Below the pieces are notes generated by a model that was given only the letters and a program-made list of their open reading frames with translations, did not search any database and had not been told where the DNA came from. This document shows, one piece after another, positions 19,568-33,769 of a stretch of 64,000 bases of DNA. Made by a program: the position numbers and the translations under genes. Numbering within the stretch: the first letter of the stretch is position 1; each line of letters starts with the position of its first letter. Source of the DNA: Enterobacter cloacae subsp. cloacae ATCC 13047 (GTDB taxonomy: Bacteria; Pseudomonadota; Gammaproteobacteria; Enterobacterales; Enterobacteriaceae); NCBI RefSeq assembly GCF_000025565.1, contig NC_014121.1, positions 3,534,001 to 3,598,000 of the forward strand, read 5' to 3'.

Positions 19568-20507
19568 TTAGTTAAAAGGTTTTAAGTCAACGCGCGCCAT
19601 CATCGCGGCTAACTGGGTACGATCGGTAATGCCGACATTGCTCTGACTCACGGCCAGGGCTGCAACGGCGGTGGCAAGACGTAAAGTATGTTCACTGGAT
19701 TCGCGCATCAGCAGACCATAGATCAGACCGCCAACCATCGAATCCCCTGCGCCAACGGTGCTGACAACGTCAACCGACGGCGGTTTGGCGATCCATTCGC
19801 CAGACGCGTTAACCCACAACGCCCCTTCTGCACCAAGCGAAATCACCACGTGAGCGATACCCCTGCTCGCGCAGCGCATGGGCAGCGTCAATCACATCTT
19901 TTAATTCTGGCAGCTTCCGGCCAGCCCAGATCTCCAGTTCACGGCGATTAGGCTTCACCAGCCACGGGGACGCTTTCAGGCCGGCGACCAGCGCATCACG
20001 GCTGCTGTCAAAGATGATGCACGGGCACTGGCTGCGCAGGCGCGTCATCCAGTCGGTGAAGGCTTCCGGGCTTACGCCAGATGGCAGACTGCCGCTGACG
20101 CACACCATGTCGAACTGGCCCAGCCAGGTCAGAGAATCATTAACAAAACGCTCCCAGTCAGACGGCGTCACTTCAAAGCCAGAGAAGTTCAGATCGGTCA
20201 CTTCCCCGTCTTTCTCCGTCAGTTTGACGTTGATACGGGTACGGCCCTGAACAACCTGGAAACGGTTAGCAATGCCCAGCTCGCTGAACAGCTGCTGGAA
20301 ACCATCCTGGTTATCTTTACCGAGGAATCCCCCCACGGTGACATCGATACCGAGATCCTTGAGCACTTTCGCGACGTTAATCCCTTTGCCCGCAGCATGC
20401 AGGCCAGTGGTACGCACGAGGTTTACTTCGCCGCGCTCAATCTCCGGGCAAAACCCCACCAGGTCATAAGCCGGGTTCAGCGTAATAGTCGCAACACGTC
20501 TGCTCAT
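19568..20507 (-). pseudogene. fruK: 1-phosphofructokinase, frameshifted
   Basis: The PfkB-family kinase that makes fructose 1,6-bisphosphate from fructose 1-phosphate. Residues 1-216 read normally from 20507 (GKGINVAKVL, DSSRDALVAG) to AHALREQG. The frame then shifts, and the remaining 95 residues (starting IAHVVISLGAEGA, with the catalytic loop TVGAGDSMVGG) continue in another frame to 19568. The shift is explained by one extra C in a CCCC run at 19860-19863. The read-through product would lack the anion-hole and catalytic Asp motif. Start overlaps the fruB stop as TAATG. It could be a sequencing error in a homopolymer; otherwise the strain should accumulate fructose 1-phosphate. Confidence 0.88.
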
Positions 20508-21994: not shown

Positions 21995-23176
21995 ATGCAT
22001 AACACGCCCGCCGCCGTCTCGCCGAAGCCCTTTGATTTCACCTCAACGGCATTTTTAATTGTTGCCTTCCTGACCGGCATCGCCGGTGCGCTGCAGACCC
22101 CTACGCTGAGCCTGTTCCTGACCAATGAAGTCCATGCGCGTCCGGCGATGGTGGGCTTCTTCTTTACCGGAAGCGCCATTATCGGCATCCTGGTGAGCCA
22201 GTTTCTGGCGGGGCGTTCAGATAAAAAAGGCGATCGTAAAAGCCTGATCGTCTTTTGCTGTCTGCTGGGGGTGTTCGCCTGCGTCCTGTTTGCCTGGAAC
22301 CGCAACTATTTTGTTCTGCTGTTTATCGGGGTGTTTCTGAGCAGTTTCGGTTCAACGGCGAATCCGCAGATGTTCGCCCTTGCCCGTGAGCATGCCGACC
22401 ATACCGGGCGAGAAGCGGTGATGTTCAGCTCTATTCTGCGTGCGCAAGTATCGCTGGCGTGGGTTATTGGCCCGCCGCTGGCTTACGCGCTGGCGATGGG
22501 GTTTGGCTTTACGGTGATGTACCTGAGTGCGGCAGTGGCCTTTGTGGTGTGTGGCGCCATGGTGTGGTTCTTTCTGCCGTCGATGCGTAAAGAGCCAAAA
22601 GTGGCAACAGGCGTGCTGGAGGCACCGCGTCGTAACCGTCGTGACGCCCTGCTCCTCTTTATTATCTGTACGCTGATGTGGGGCACAAACAGCCTGTATA
22701 TCATTAATATGCCGCTGTTTATTATTGATGAGCTGCATCTGCCCGAGAAGCTTGCTGGCATCATGATGGGGACCGCGGCCGGGCTTGAAATCCCCACCAT
22801 GCTGATTGCTGGCTATTACGCGAAGCGTTTCGGGAAACGTTTTCTGATGCGTATCGCCGCCGTCGCCGGGCTACTGTTCTATGTTGGAATGCTGACGGTT
22901 CATACGCCGGGGCTGCTGCTGGCTTTACAGCTGCTGAATGCCATCTATATCGGCATACTCGCCGGAATTGGCATGCTCTATTTCCAGGATCTGATGCCGG
23001 GCCAGGCAGGCTCTGCCACCACCCTTTATACTAATACCACCCGCGTGGGCTGGATTATCGCAGGCTCAATGGCCGGCGTGGTGGCTGAAATCTGGAACTA
23101 TCACACGGTGTTCTGGATTGCGCTGGTGATGTGCACCCTGACGATAGCGTGCCTGACAAGAATTAAAGACGTTTAA
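21995..23176 (+). CDS. setB: sugar efflux transporter SetB
   Basis: 393 aa, twelve-span MFS protein of the SET family, which exports lactose, glucose and IPTG-like sugars. The span 2-3 loop motif [12 protein letters not shown] and the signature [20 protein letters not shown] are visible. It is divergent from fru, as in E. coli. The stop TAA overlaps by two bases the stop of the convergent yeiW 3' remnant, marking the last intact backbone gene before the island. Confidence 0.95.
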
Positions 23177-23352
23177 GGTGCGGTGAGTGCTTCCAGATTA
23201 AGCAGGTACGTCATCGCCTGCGCGCGCGTGTTGCCGCACATCTCGGCGGAGGGCTGCAGCCCGGAGCAGACCTTCGGGCGCAGAGGCGAGCCAAAGATCA
23301 TGCACAGGTTGGTTTCAGAAAGCTGAACGCAGCGGGTATTCGCAGGCTTGCC
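23173..23352 (-). pseudogene. yeiW: yeiW 3' remnant left of the island
   Basis: C-terminal part of the small cysteine-cluster protein YeiW, from [15 protein letters not shown] to LNLEALTAP. It joins in frame, through the shared GGCTTGCC, to the 5' remnant at 33687-33769, rebuilding a protein of about 84 residues with the CxxC-type cysteines of the YkgJ-like metal-binding family. In the present arrangement an ATG inside the element (23370) or at 23358 could give a 61-65 residue N-truncated product lacking the DCGACC cluster. Interrupted by the island. Confidence 0.9.
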
Positions 23353-23380
23353 TAACATATAATTATTCACTGTTTAAAAT
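23345..23380. other. attL of the yeiW island
   Basis: Core GGCTTGCC at 23345-23352, then the element arm with AATTATTCAC at 23361-23370. The right end has the same core, and the inverted copy GTGAATAATT at 33669-33678. The arms are equally spaced (12 bases) from the central TT of the core when the ends are joined, as expected for a serine-integrase attP half-site. Confidence 0.87.
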
Positions 23381-23447: not shown

Positions 23448-23645
23448 ATGAAACCCAAGCTATATTCGTACGTGCGTTTTTCATCTGTGAAACAACGGGA
23501 AGGTAACTCCCTGGAGCGTCAGCAAGATACCGCTCTAAAAATTGCGGCCCGTTATAATCTCGAACTTGATACAACGGCTTTCCACGATCTCGGCATGTCT
23601 GCGTTCAAAGGAAAAAATGCTCATGAAGGGAAGCTATCGGAGTTC
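23448..23645 (+). pseudogene. large serine recombinase, N-terminal fragment
   Basis: About 66 residues of a resolvase-type N-terminal domain. It starts MKPKLYSYVRFSSVKQREG with the catalytic Ser at about residue 12 in YVRFSS, followed by NSLERQQDTALKIAARYNLEL. The frame runs straight into IS1. The rest of the catalytic domain and the whole recombinase and zinc-ribbon region (about 450 residues in intact family members) are missing. Its place just inside attL is the usual one for the integrase of such an element. It probably inserted the island and is now dead. Confidence 0.9.
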
Positions 23646-30213: not shown

Positions 30214-30813
30214 ATGAATTTACACTTTACAATTTTTCCCAAAAGAATACAAAAAGAACCCTATTTCCTTCGCGAATCCACGGTAAAACTGAACCGAGTT
30301 GGCAATAACCGAGTAAAATCGCAATTCATTTTTAAACGTTCTTTCAGCCAAATAGCACTCATTCTGGACCTCGATAAAAGTGAAGTAGACCGGGTCAGAA
30401 AAATTAAACAACGGCTTCCTGATCATAAATTGATAGGGATTGCCCGCTGGATCATTGCACCACTTGAAAACAGCCAATCGGCTTTATGTTATCTTTTTGT
30501 CTGTGAAGACAATGTCGCGTACCTATCTGCACCTGAGATGGTTTTTACTAATGACATCATATCAATAGACTCATCAACCAGACGTTCGGTCTATAAAACA
30601 ACTTACAACCTAACTAACCCCGATACGAAATATGGGTATATTAACCTTCGTTTTCATTCTGAATACAAACTGGTTACAAAAAGACGTGGTCCATCAAAAA
30701 CTAAAAAATTATCCGAAGGTAAACCGCCTTCTGACTATGCATCTTTGTTGGTTGAGTATGAAGCTTTACGCAAGGAAGTCGAGCGGTTAAAAAAATATGA
30801 TAACGCAGAATGA
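30214..30813 (+). CDS. 199-aa protein of unknown function
   Basis: I recognise no family. The protein is basic and AT-rich in codon use, with predicted mixed alpha/beta sequence (LIGIARWIIAPLENSQSALCYLFVCEDNVAYLSAPEMVF split over residues 72-110) and a C-terminal coiled-coil-like helix (SLLVEYEALRKEVERLKKY, residues 176-194). No signal peptide or membrane span is seen. It ends two bases from the stop of the convergent yeiW-like gene. Such coiled-coil tails often mediate dimerisation, but no role is evident. Confidence 0.7.
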   Translation: MNLHFTIFPKRIQKEPYFLRESTVKLNRVGNNRVKSQFIFKRSFSQIALILDLDKSEVDRVRKIKQRLPDHKLIGIARWIIAPLENSQSALCYLFVCEDNVAYLSAPEMVFTNDIISIDSSTRRSVYKTTYNLTNPDTKYGYINLRFHSEYKLVTKRRGPSKTKKLSEGKPPSDYASLLVEYEALRKEVERLKKYDNAE

Positions 30814-30815
30814 AA

Positions 30816-31094
30816 TTATAGATGGAAACTGTTCCCAATCGAAGGTGCTGTTGCTTCCTCTAACTGGATAAGGTAAATAAAAGCTTCTTCACGGTTCGTA
30901 GAACACATATCTATCGACGGTTGTAGACTGCCGCATACTTTAGGGCGCAGGGGTGAGCCAAAGATGCTACATAGGTTATCCTCCGATAACTGAACACATC
31001 TTACATTAGCTGGTTTCCCCTGTGGCATTCCCGGAATTGGACTTGAAATCGAAGGTGCAGTACAACAAGCCCCGCAATCGATACGACACTTCAT
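30816..31094 (-). CDS. island-borne complete YeiW-like cysteine-cluster protein
   Basis: 92 aa from [11 protein letters not shown], chosen because AAGGA lies 7 bases upstream and the chromosomal protein starts at the same place ([11 protein letters not shown]); an ATG six codons earlier is also in frame. It shares about 63 of 84 positions with the rebuilt chromosomal YeiW, including all cysteines ([28 protein letters not shown]). The C-terminus is ten residues longer. This YkgJ-like zinc/iron-cluster family is uncharacterised. The codons over the att core differ from the host gene (GGTTTCCC for GGCTTGCC on the plus strand), which would destroy the integrase site while keeping Gly-Lys-Pro. Confidence 0.9.
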
Positions 31095-31326
31095 TATAGA
31101 ATCCTTGCTCATCCCCCACTCAATTATTGACAGTAACAGAATGTCCTACTGACTGGTAGCCTGCCATCTATATCTATGCTTTCAGAATGTAGCCGTTAAC
31201 TTCTAATGTATTGAAAAAATAAGTAAAAACATAAATTCGTTCCCATGCATTTCTTAATCTATTCTTTTTTTCAGTGTAAAATCTTGCTCAGAAGTACTGT
31301 CATGCAACTTATTACATGGAGTTACT

Positions 31327-32304
31327 ATGGGCTTTTATGTTAAGAAGAGCATTCGCGTTGGACCGATGAGATTCAACCTATCCAAATCAGGAGTCGGTGC
31401 ATCTATTGGTATAAAAGGACTGAGGATTGGTACTGGCCCAAGAGGAAATTACATCCACATCGGCGCTGGCGGGGTCTATTATCGTGCTTCGCTTTCACCA
31501 AGTATGATCCCACAGGACGGCAAGAAGGTTCAACGTGTACCTGATGAATCCCCAGTAGAACATGACAATACGCATGCACCTCTTGAGGAAATCGAGTCAT
31601 CTCATATCTCGGAAATCGTTGATTCCAATTCCCGAGAACTGCTTGAAGAGTTGAATAACAAACGTAAAAAGTTACAAATATGGCCCTTCGCTATTTTCCT
31701 TTCGATTGCAATTTTACTTTACGGTTTTTCACAGGCATGGCCTGAGTGGTGCCTGGCAATAGGATTTATCGCAGGGGGAGCTGTTTCCGTTTTTGCTTAC
31801 ATGTACGATCAGCTAAGAAAGACCACTGTTCTTTTTTATGACTTTGATGACGAAATGATGGCATGTTACCAGCAACTTCATGATAGTGGGGCTATGCTTG
31901 CAAGCTGCTCAAAGGTATGGCATGTAGAAGCTTCTGGAGCTGTTTATGACCCTAAATATCATGCCGGAGCAAGTAACTTGCTACGTAGAAAAACAACCTC
32001 TATCAGCAAATCAAATCCTCCCTTCGTTAAAACAAATATTGAGACGATTGCCATCAATGTAGGTCGTCAAACATTACATTTCTTTCCAGATAGAGTACTC
32101 GTTTTTGACCGTGACGGTGTCGGTGCTGTTAGTTATGACCAACTATTCATTAACGTTGGTAATAGTCAGTTCATTGAAAGCGAAAGTGTGCCCGGAGATG
32201 CCTTAGTCGTTGGCAGGACATGGAAGTATGTTAACAAATCGGGTGGTCCTGACAGACGATTTAAAGACAATACAGAAATTCCTATATGTCTATATGAAAA
32301 TCTT
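31327..32304 (+). pseudogene. DUF4236 membrane protein, 3' end split off by an IS
   Basis: The N-terminal 55 residues form a clear DUF4236 domain (MGFYVKKSIRVGPMRFNLSK, GVGASIGIKGLRIGTGPRGNYIHIG, GGVYYRASL). Two hydrophobic spans follow at about 117-135 and 140-160, then a soluble region of about 160 residues. GGAG precedes the start. The current stop TGA is the first three bases of the IS at 32305. The original frame continues past the IS at 33534-33650 for 38 more codons, so about 326 of about 364 residues remain. The function is unknown. A truncated product may still be made. Confidence 0.85.
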
Positions 32305-33476: not shown

Positions 33477-33533
33477 CTCTCTTTAAGCCATCTTAAATGA
33501 CTCTGAGGTGTCTGTTAAACCCGTGGCGATTCA

Positions 33534-33650
33534 CTTTCGTTCACAAGTCATTCTGGACTAAATGAGTTATTACAGCTGTCTAAAATTGGGTATGGGGAAT
33601 GTTTTTCACATGCAATTGAAACACTTAGCAAGAAAGTCATATCTTCTTAG
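33534..33650 (+). pseudogene. orphan 3' end of the DUF4236 gene
   Basis: Joined to 32304 without the IS and one CTT, it reads ENL then SFTSHSGLNELLQLSKIG, YGECFSHAIETLSKKVISS and TAG. It ends only 11 bp before the right att arm, so this gene was the last cargo gene of the island. Confidence 0.85.
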
Positions 33651-33660
33651 TTAAGTCGTT

Positions 33661-33694
33661 TTTATACTGTGAATAATTGACTATTGGGCTTGCC
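33661..33694. other. attR of the yeiW island
   Basis: Element arm GTGAATAATT at 33669-33678, then the shared core GGCTTGCC at 33687-33694, followed by native yeiW sequence. It mirrors attL. Joining the two element arms gives a 44-bp site symmetric about the central TT. Confidence 0.87.
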
Positions 33695-33769
33695 CTCCGG
33701 CATTCCTGGAATGGGGCTGGAAATGGACGGTGCGGTACAGCACGCGCCGCAATCGGGACGACAATCCAT
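33687..33769 (-). pseudogene. yeiW: yeiW 5' remnant right of the island
   Basis: N-terminal 28 residues, [20 protein letters not shown] then PGMPEGKP, starting at 33769 with GAGAG upstream. It then runs into the island and stops at 33662 after NSQLFTV. With 23173-23352 it restores one uninterrupted gene. The host promoter of yeiW should still lie upstream, between here and yeiP. Confidence 0.9.

Follow-up and report, generated by a model that had tools for sequence, protein, structure and literature searches.

The locus between setB and yeiP in Enterobacter cloacae subsp. cloacae ATCC 13047 raises the question of why a genomic island that breaks a chromosomal gene should carry a second, complete gene of the same family. 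The window, by which we mean the whole stretch of 64,000 nucleotides that was analysed, contains the small gene yeiW in two halves with an island between them, and within the island an intact yeiW-like gene. The explanation that we consider very probable is that an island encoding a large serine recombinase breaks yeiW and brings along a foreign, complete copy that keeps the function, and that this copy is selected and can outlive the island.

The split gene and its intact counterpart

The gene order in the window is setB, 3' half of yeiW, island, 5' half of yeiW, yeiP, where setB, yeiW and yeiP are homologues of the E. coli genes, yet distinct from them. The host gene is split at codon 27, and its halves, assigned from YeiW matches and a comparison of island ends, lie 10,334 bp apart, which corresponds to an island of about 10.3 kb. 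The features of the locus are the following:

23173..23352, minus strand: 3' half of host yeiW, codons 26-84 and stop
23345..23371, minus strand: attR, island arm and GGCAAGCC core
23448..23645, plus strand: large serine recombinase stub, N-terminal 66 codons, cut by an IS1-like element
30214..30813, plus strand: 199-aa protein, convergent with the replacement gene, also found in L005 and as a piece in G050
30816..31094, minus strand: island-borne complete yeiW-like gene, the proposed replacement; 92 aa, PF03692 CxxCxxCC domain, frame intact
31102..31106, minus strand: AAGGA ribosome-binding site of the replacement gene, 7 nt before its ATG
31130..31138, minus strand: TGTTACTGT, extended -10-like element (TGnTAnnnT) before the replacement gene, from a motif search
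31327..32304, plus strand: codons 1-326 of the DUF4236 gene, which is oriented divergently to the replacement gene and interrupted by an IS3-family element
33528..33647, plus strand: codons 324-363, the remainder of the DUF4236 gene on the far side of the IS element
33666..33694, minus strand: attL, GGCAAGCC core and island arm
33686..33769, minus strand: 5' half of host yeiW, codons 1-28

The initial annotation had described a cargo protein that aligns over the whole rebuilt host protein at about 75% identity, keeps every cysteine and has its own AAGGA ribosome site, and each of these points is borne out by the comparison. The copy shares 25 of 28 residues with the 5' half and 41 of 59 with the 3' half, which amounts to 63/84 (75%) if the three shared residues are counted once, all eight cysteines (positions 3, 7, 10, 11, 33, 42, 54 and 64) are present in both the copy and the host halves, and the ribosome site lies where it was expected. 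A second in-frame ATG is found upstream at 31112; homologues align from MKCR, at which start the L005 equivalent has a GTG. YeiW matches PF03692 with 32.2 bits against a Pfam cut-off of 23, and a PDB search found no relative. At an E-value of 0.01 the genome to which the window belongs contains three YeiW matches, namely the replacement gene and the two halves.

Of 11 genes examined (those of seven islands and of G050, G165, G327 and G045), 10 have the TGnTAnnnT element at 25-65 nt upstream of the start, with G165 as the exception, and so do 28/33 native yeiW genes, compared with means of 0.92 for copies and 1.39 for natives and maxima of 4 and 6 in 500 single-letter shuffles; since the motif was sought only after having been noticed, this is suggestive. 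A general sigma-70 promoter scan upstream of the replacement gene returned nothing at the -10-like element.

The recombinase stub is 100% identical to residues 1-66 of the L002 recombinase, which at full length (L002:24124-26040) comprises 638 aa with the domains PF00239 and PF13408 and adjoins attR. Recombinase and DUF4236 gene are thus both broken in the window and the YeiW copy is intact. Elsewhere in the window, a fruK-like frame of 232 aa (19809-20507) has an end that seems frame-altered relative to E. coli FruK and may contain a frameshift.

A fixed attachment site within yeiW

The split point and the position of the core are identical in all seven islands with a large serine recombinase that were found. 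The GGCAAGCC core is present at attL in 7/7 and at attR in 6/7 islands, the attR of L006 having GGAAAGCC, and the native E. coli sequence at the split reads GGC AAG CCC, encoding Gly26, Lys27 and Pro28. Across the seven islands the attL consensus is ..GGCAAGCCY/AAYAGTCAATTATTC.. and the attR consensus ..AGTGAATAATTATATGTTAGGCAAGCC.., with variants of the latter in L002 and L006. Read by eye, these ends imply an attP in the form of a dyad around a central AA (TTAGGC-AA-GCCTAA) with the arms AGTGAATAATTA and CAATTATTCACAGT. In L006 the AA is preceded by GGA at attR but by the host GGC at attL, so that the exchange took place at or just after that point, and we infer that the AA of the Lys27 codon is the crossover dinucleotide. 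A repeat search across the island junctions found nothing, and matches to the att pattern in G003 and G154 are not att-site-like in their context.

All seven invaded hosts have the GGCAAGCC core (p 0.009 versus natives). The idea that the core has been recoded in the copy as self-protection found no support, as it is kept in 2 of 9 island or relic copies versus 13 of 30 natives (Fisher p 0.44).

Recurrence of the pairing

If the copy belongs to the way in which the island lives with its target, as the initial annotation supposed, other islands of this kind would be expected to carry the same pairing of recombinase and YeiW gene. The seven yeiW islands found, in the genome of the window, three E. 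coli, Cedecea, Citrobacter and one metagenome-assembled genome (MAG), all contain a complete YeiW gene beside a DUF4236 gene together with the recombinase, which is a stub in the window, and none of the seven is without the gene. These islands are non-independent events, and because the recombinase searches reach close relatives only, they may have overlooked islands that carry no copy.

In E. coli the recombinase is present in 3/5426 complete genomes. The cargo YeiW gene has matches in 49 of the 5426; three of them, with 76-90% identity over 65-100% of the gene, are close matches located in islands, and the other 46 (77-81% over 25-30% of the query) are native yeiW by annotation. The three genomes with a close copy are the three with the recombinase, and all three islands are inside yeiW. 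A scan of 84,980 GTDB species genomes with two heptapeptide patterns yielded 189 stretches, three of which were confirmed, in Cedecea davisae, Citrobacter sp. Cu233 and a MAG labelled Neobacillus. Each of these genomes has an intact YeiW together with two halves that are divided at the same residues; one extra small YeiW piece occurs in Citrobacter sp. Cu233, and in the MAG the halves, and hence the two island ends, are on two contigs. The entry P0001, which is 92% identical to the copy, represents 268 contigs. This MAG, assigned to the Bacillales genus 'Neobacillus', holds an enterobacterial yeiW island beside setB (L014, L086), and its label is probably a binning error or contamination.

Viral contigs contained no further yeiW islands. 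The phage collection showed no close relative of the recombinase (at most 34% identity among 15 of 17 matches listed), and the plasmid collection gave one recombinase match at 38% identity and no yeiW island. A search of 394 genomes of the order returned none at E 1e-150 and, having had no positive control, shows nothing.

The islands share a common plan that runs from attL over a DUF4236 gene in reverse orientation, the YeiW copy, variable cargo, a small serine recombinase, short hypotheticals, an LprI-like gene and the large recombinase to attR, with the copy at one island end and the recombinase (in the window, its stub) at the opposite end. The plan is not followed throughout, as the window has retained just a part and L006 adds HNH and AAA genes outside the recombinase. 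Among the variable cargo, L005:4418-10003 contains anti-phage genes, a CBASS operon with ISSen4 between the E1-E2 and JAB genes, and L006:3336-16019 encodes a retron type VI-like RT, a DRT8-like RT and PDC-S15 and PDC-M01AB proteins.

Similar cargo, another integrase

Recombinases 40-42% identical to that of the yeiW islands over most of the length are encoded in the window's own genome (G000) and in G274, G210 and G332, and by ORF reading each of these sister recombinases adjoins a malX-like fragment. In G000 this is a second island, at G000:C3:2335830-2337494 (L088), where the 42% identical recombinase lies beside the fragment. E. coli CX12 and CX08 have a recombinase gene 100% identical to that of this island, and in both strains malX is annotated as split by the island. 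The cargo of CX12 and CX08 is near that of L002 and L005 and includes a CDF transporter, cytochrome b562, cytochrome b, a VIT family protein, an OB-fold lipoprotein, a hypothetical, LprI and a small recombinase. These two whole malX islands have no second malX by annotation and no match to YeiW or DUF4236. For the malX 5' fragment, the next-best match in each of G000, G274, G210 and G332 has at most 44% identity, meaning that there is no close second malX, and there is no YeiW match near the sister recombinase, the YeiW matches of these genomes lying elsewhere. CX12 and CX08 are near-identical strains and thus represent few independent cases, and a Fisher test of copy presence (7/7 versus 0/4) treats related strains as independent, so no conclusion is based on it. 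Because nearly the same cargo comes without YeiW in the malX islands, the replacement gene appears to track the integrase whose insertion disrupts yeiW and not the cargo, malX being left broken. Near-same cargo with two integrases, and a replacement seen with the yeiW one only, constitutes a natural experiment on paying for a broken gene.

This comparison also bears on the strongest alternative, according to which the copy is cargo like any other, of use to the island or to its metal and redox genes (CDF transporter, VIT1, cytochrome b562), and resembles the target by accident. Metal-linked variable cargo is indeed found in several islands (L002, L005 and Cedecea), and Pfam describes PF03692 as a putative zinc- or iron-chelating domain. 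However, L006 has the copy without metal cargo and the two whole malX islands have the cargo without the copy, which in the yeiW islands has a constant position next to the att site, is of the same family as the broken gene and is intact even in relics where metal cargo was not found. We therefore regard this alternative as unlikely.

Decayed islands and surviving copies

In three further genomes (G050, G165 and G201) the island has decayed and an intact copy is left, which in G201 is a chimera of native and island sequence. Both att arms of G050 are recognisable but decayed, each with a score that 0/1000 shuffles reach; of the native 3' half a short remnant at 56% is left, the 5' half was not found, the DUF4236 gene is open over 363 codons and the YeiW copy is intact. 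G165 has an attL arm that is perfect over 26 bp (0/1000 shuffles), the copy about 120 bp inside and the native 3' half; an attR arm was not found (768/1000 shuffles) and there is no recombinase match at the locus. The decayed island of G165 is filled by a 789-aa VgrG-like protein and small ORFs (L079:8486-10855), which by ORF reading have the look of type VI secretion cargo.

In G201 an attR arm (0/1000 shuffles) and the native 3' half remain, and an attL arm was not found (688/1000 shuffles). The 5' part of the chimera matches the native gene of a sister species in 119/120 upstream bases and in 81 of the first 84 nt, nucleotides 85-147 are like the Cedecea copy (60/63 versus 25/63 for the native gene), and the remainder is closer to that copy as well (84/102 versus 63/102). 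The switch falls within about 10 bp after the att core, and the chimera could have been made either by the recombinase or by homologous recombination.

Two other loci touch on the history of the copies. Directly before the copy of Citrobacter sp. Cu233 lie an older second attL arm (0/1000 shuffles) and a decayed yeiW 5' piece (L083:3137-3251), an arrangement that would fit acquisition of the copy along with the junction of an earlier insertion. Genus g46 (G045, G327, G179, G260, G383), in which a decayed 5' piece precedes an intact gene, was considered as a case of a domesticated copy and rejected, since the arm test failed in G327 (212/1000 shuffles upstream, 813/1000 downstream).

A more tentative reading, which we hold at slightly less than even confidence, is that the islands are vehicles that swap a core gene: the native yeiW is broken, the foreign allele is selected, and once the island has decayed the lineage is left with a foreign or chimeric allele as its sole intact yeiW, with G050, G165 and G201 as stages and the G201 chimera perhaps made by the recombinase at the att core inside the copy. 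Such islands would then be a route for exchanging a core gene with a foreign allele. The chimera with its switch just after the core and the retention of the GGCAAGCC core in the Cedecea and MAG copies would also fit a different role, in which the copy chiefly serves as a homology donor or att decoy through which the locus is rebuilt or the allele exchanged after insertion, rather than an expressed rescue gene. As a single chimera was seen and as the other copies have their own start, a -10-like element (except for G165), no stops and signs of constraint (see below), this is very improbable compared with a rescue gene.

Fate of the halves and origin of the copy

Could the insertion itself rebuild the host gene, with the island supplying a new start or end at the junction and the separate copy being redundant? 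The attR side gives an in-frame ATG before the 3' half in 5/7 islands. This ATG is absent in L002 and L006, though, the 3' product would be without the CxxxCxxCC motif, and the 5' half extended into the island meets a stop 7 codons in, giving a 35-aa truncated product, so that we give a repair at the junction hardly any weight.

The initial annotation had also allowed for a host-derived gene that arose by later duplication. Measured against E. coli YeiW, the copies of the three E. coli islands reach 63.1-65.5% identity and the broken halves 96.4-100%; the copy is far from the host protein while the halves are near-identical, and it is therefore not a host duplicate. Same family and same length notwithstanding, a recent duplicate of the host gene is thus practically dismissed, the window copy likewise being no closer to same-genus natives (62, 62, 56 and 60 of 84 aa for four of them) than to two others (57 and 61 of 84).

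The ancestry of the foreign allele itself is complex. At the DNA level L005 and Cedecea share 97.8% identity in the recombinase (dS 0.08), 94.3% in DUF4236 (dS 0.19) and 70.3% in YeiW, where dS is saturated; between the window and L005 the values are 90.3% for YeiW versus 87.6% for DUF4236. Either the presence of the YeiW gene would be conserved but its allele exchanged, or the islands would be mosaics, and as copies diverge strongly between islands with near-identical ends, the islands may recombine here for other reasons. A protein tree of 72 rows has poor resolution and places the copies in several spots. In a DNA tree of 37 genes, from which G201, G327, G045 and the near-identical natives L043 and L050 were excluded, a single clade for nine copies is rejected (p-AU 0.006), while one for eight, without G165, is not (0.43).

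None of the 10 copies checked (seven islands, three relics) has an internal stop. Pairwise dN/dS of nine copies (G201, G327 and G045 left out) has a median of 0.087, from the 13/36 pairs with usable dS, most others being saturated, and that of 30 native yeiW genes is 0.107 (224/435 pairs usable); L037 was not matched by the motif used to build the set. The close pairs agree with this, at 0.14 (window and L005) and 0.11 (Cedecea and MAG). With dN/dS at about 0.09, the island copies are constrained.

How much the host needs yeiW

Native yeiW is covered to at least 80% in 5356/5426 E. coli and is present in 234 of the 392 family genomes sampled, some of them strongly reduced; in G162 and G283 the gene looks frameshifted. 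In E. coli EC12, EC15 and EC18 only codons 1-30 remain, adjoining setB and forming the sole YeiW match per genome, and a replacement copy was looked for in these three genomes and none seen. The remnants (L121:759-865 in EC12, L122:818-924 in EC15, L059:2118-2224 in EC18) end near the att position with no island, and the loss could reflect a deletion by chance or an excision that failed and left a scar. Judging from such genomes, yeiW is dispensable. The suggestion of the initial annotation that yeiW matters to the host thus holds in the sense of selection (dN/dS of about 0.1 and presence in 5356/5426 E. coli) and not in the sense of essentiality, given that EC12, EC15 and EC18 have lost the gene. 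The islands nonetheless flag yeiW as a gene whose loss may cost enough for an element to carry a spare. In the literature the yeiW promoter has served as a vanillin sensor (PMC5291986), and among the six open PMC articles listed as naming yeiW no title concerns an island.

A model for the replacement

The preferred model can be put together as follows. The island would integrate by recombination of attP with attB at one fixed place in yeiW, the GGCAAGCC core at Gly26-Lys27-Pro28, and integration would split the gene and leave the truncated 35-aa product. The foreign complete yeiW at the end opposite the recombinase, with its own ribosome site and -10-like element, would let production of the cysteine-cluster protein continue in cells with an integrated island, so that the bacterium probably keeps a function that the insertion would otherwise destroy. 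Because the allele would supply this function, it would come under purifying selection, could outlive the island and might finally replace the native gene. Expression of the copy, its functional equivalence and rescue as the reason for keeping it are what we infer from the arrangement and constraint of these genes.

Comparison with known systems

The initial annotation had referred to replacement genes for disrupted targets from some tyrosine-recombinase islands and set the present case apart because the copy is separate from the junction and divergent. The copy is indeed complete, separate and divergent, but such copies have a precedent in the recA mobile element (RME) of Vibrio cholerae S24, which inserts in recA and has a divergent recA at one end and a phage integrase at the other (PMC4405046). 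Its authors proposed that the island bears its own functional recA copy to keep the function, and excision and retargeting were shown (PMC4405046); a similar insert is described in recA of V. parahaemolyticus (PMC4334540).

In other respects the yeiW island resembles different elements. As in other large serine recombinase islands (PF00239 and PF13408), the recombinase lies next to attR and insertion occurs at a single core; the yeiW island differs from them in carrying a full replacement of its target. The EcloIMEX elements of the Enterobacter cloacae complex occupy the same setB-yeiP interval (PMC11138976, PMC6783431) and are described as XerC/XerD-dependent (PMC11138976), whereas the yeiW island uses a serine recombinase. 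The main text of a survey of E. coli defence islands contains no word beginning with 'yei' (PMC10121019).

Elements that reconstitute their target at the junction, such as SXT in prfC, compensate for the damage by fusing a new promoter or end to the broken gene. In contrast to these SXT-type elements, which mend the target at the junction, the yeiW island carries a separate whole gene.

The closest likeness is therefore to the RME, with which the yeiW island shares the specific split of a chromosomal gene, a complete divergent foreign copy at one end and the integrase at the other. To judge by its serine recombinase domains, the yeiW island would work like the RME without being a member of the RME family: the RME has a phage-type integrase and recA as its target, the yeiW island a large serine recombinase and a small, dispensable target. 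Beyond what is described for the RME, the yeiW islands number seven, differ in cargo and come from at least three named genera (Escherichia, Cedecea and Citrobacter), and there are relics in which an intact copy outlives the island and sister islands without a copy. Serine recombinase, dispensable target and recurrence are what is new with respect to the RME precedent, and with them the island that carries its own recA turns from an isolated curiosity into one instance of a recurrent and comparable system.
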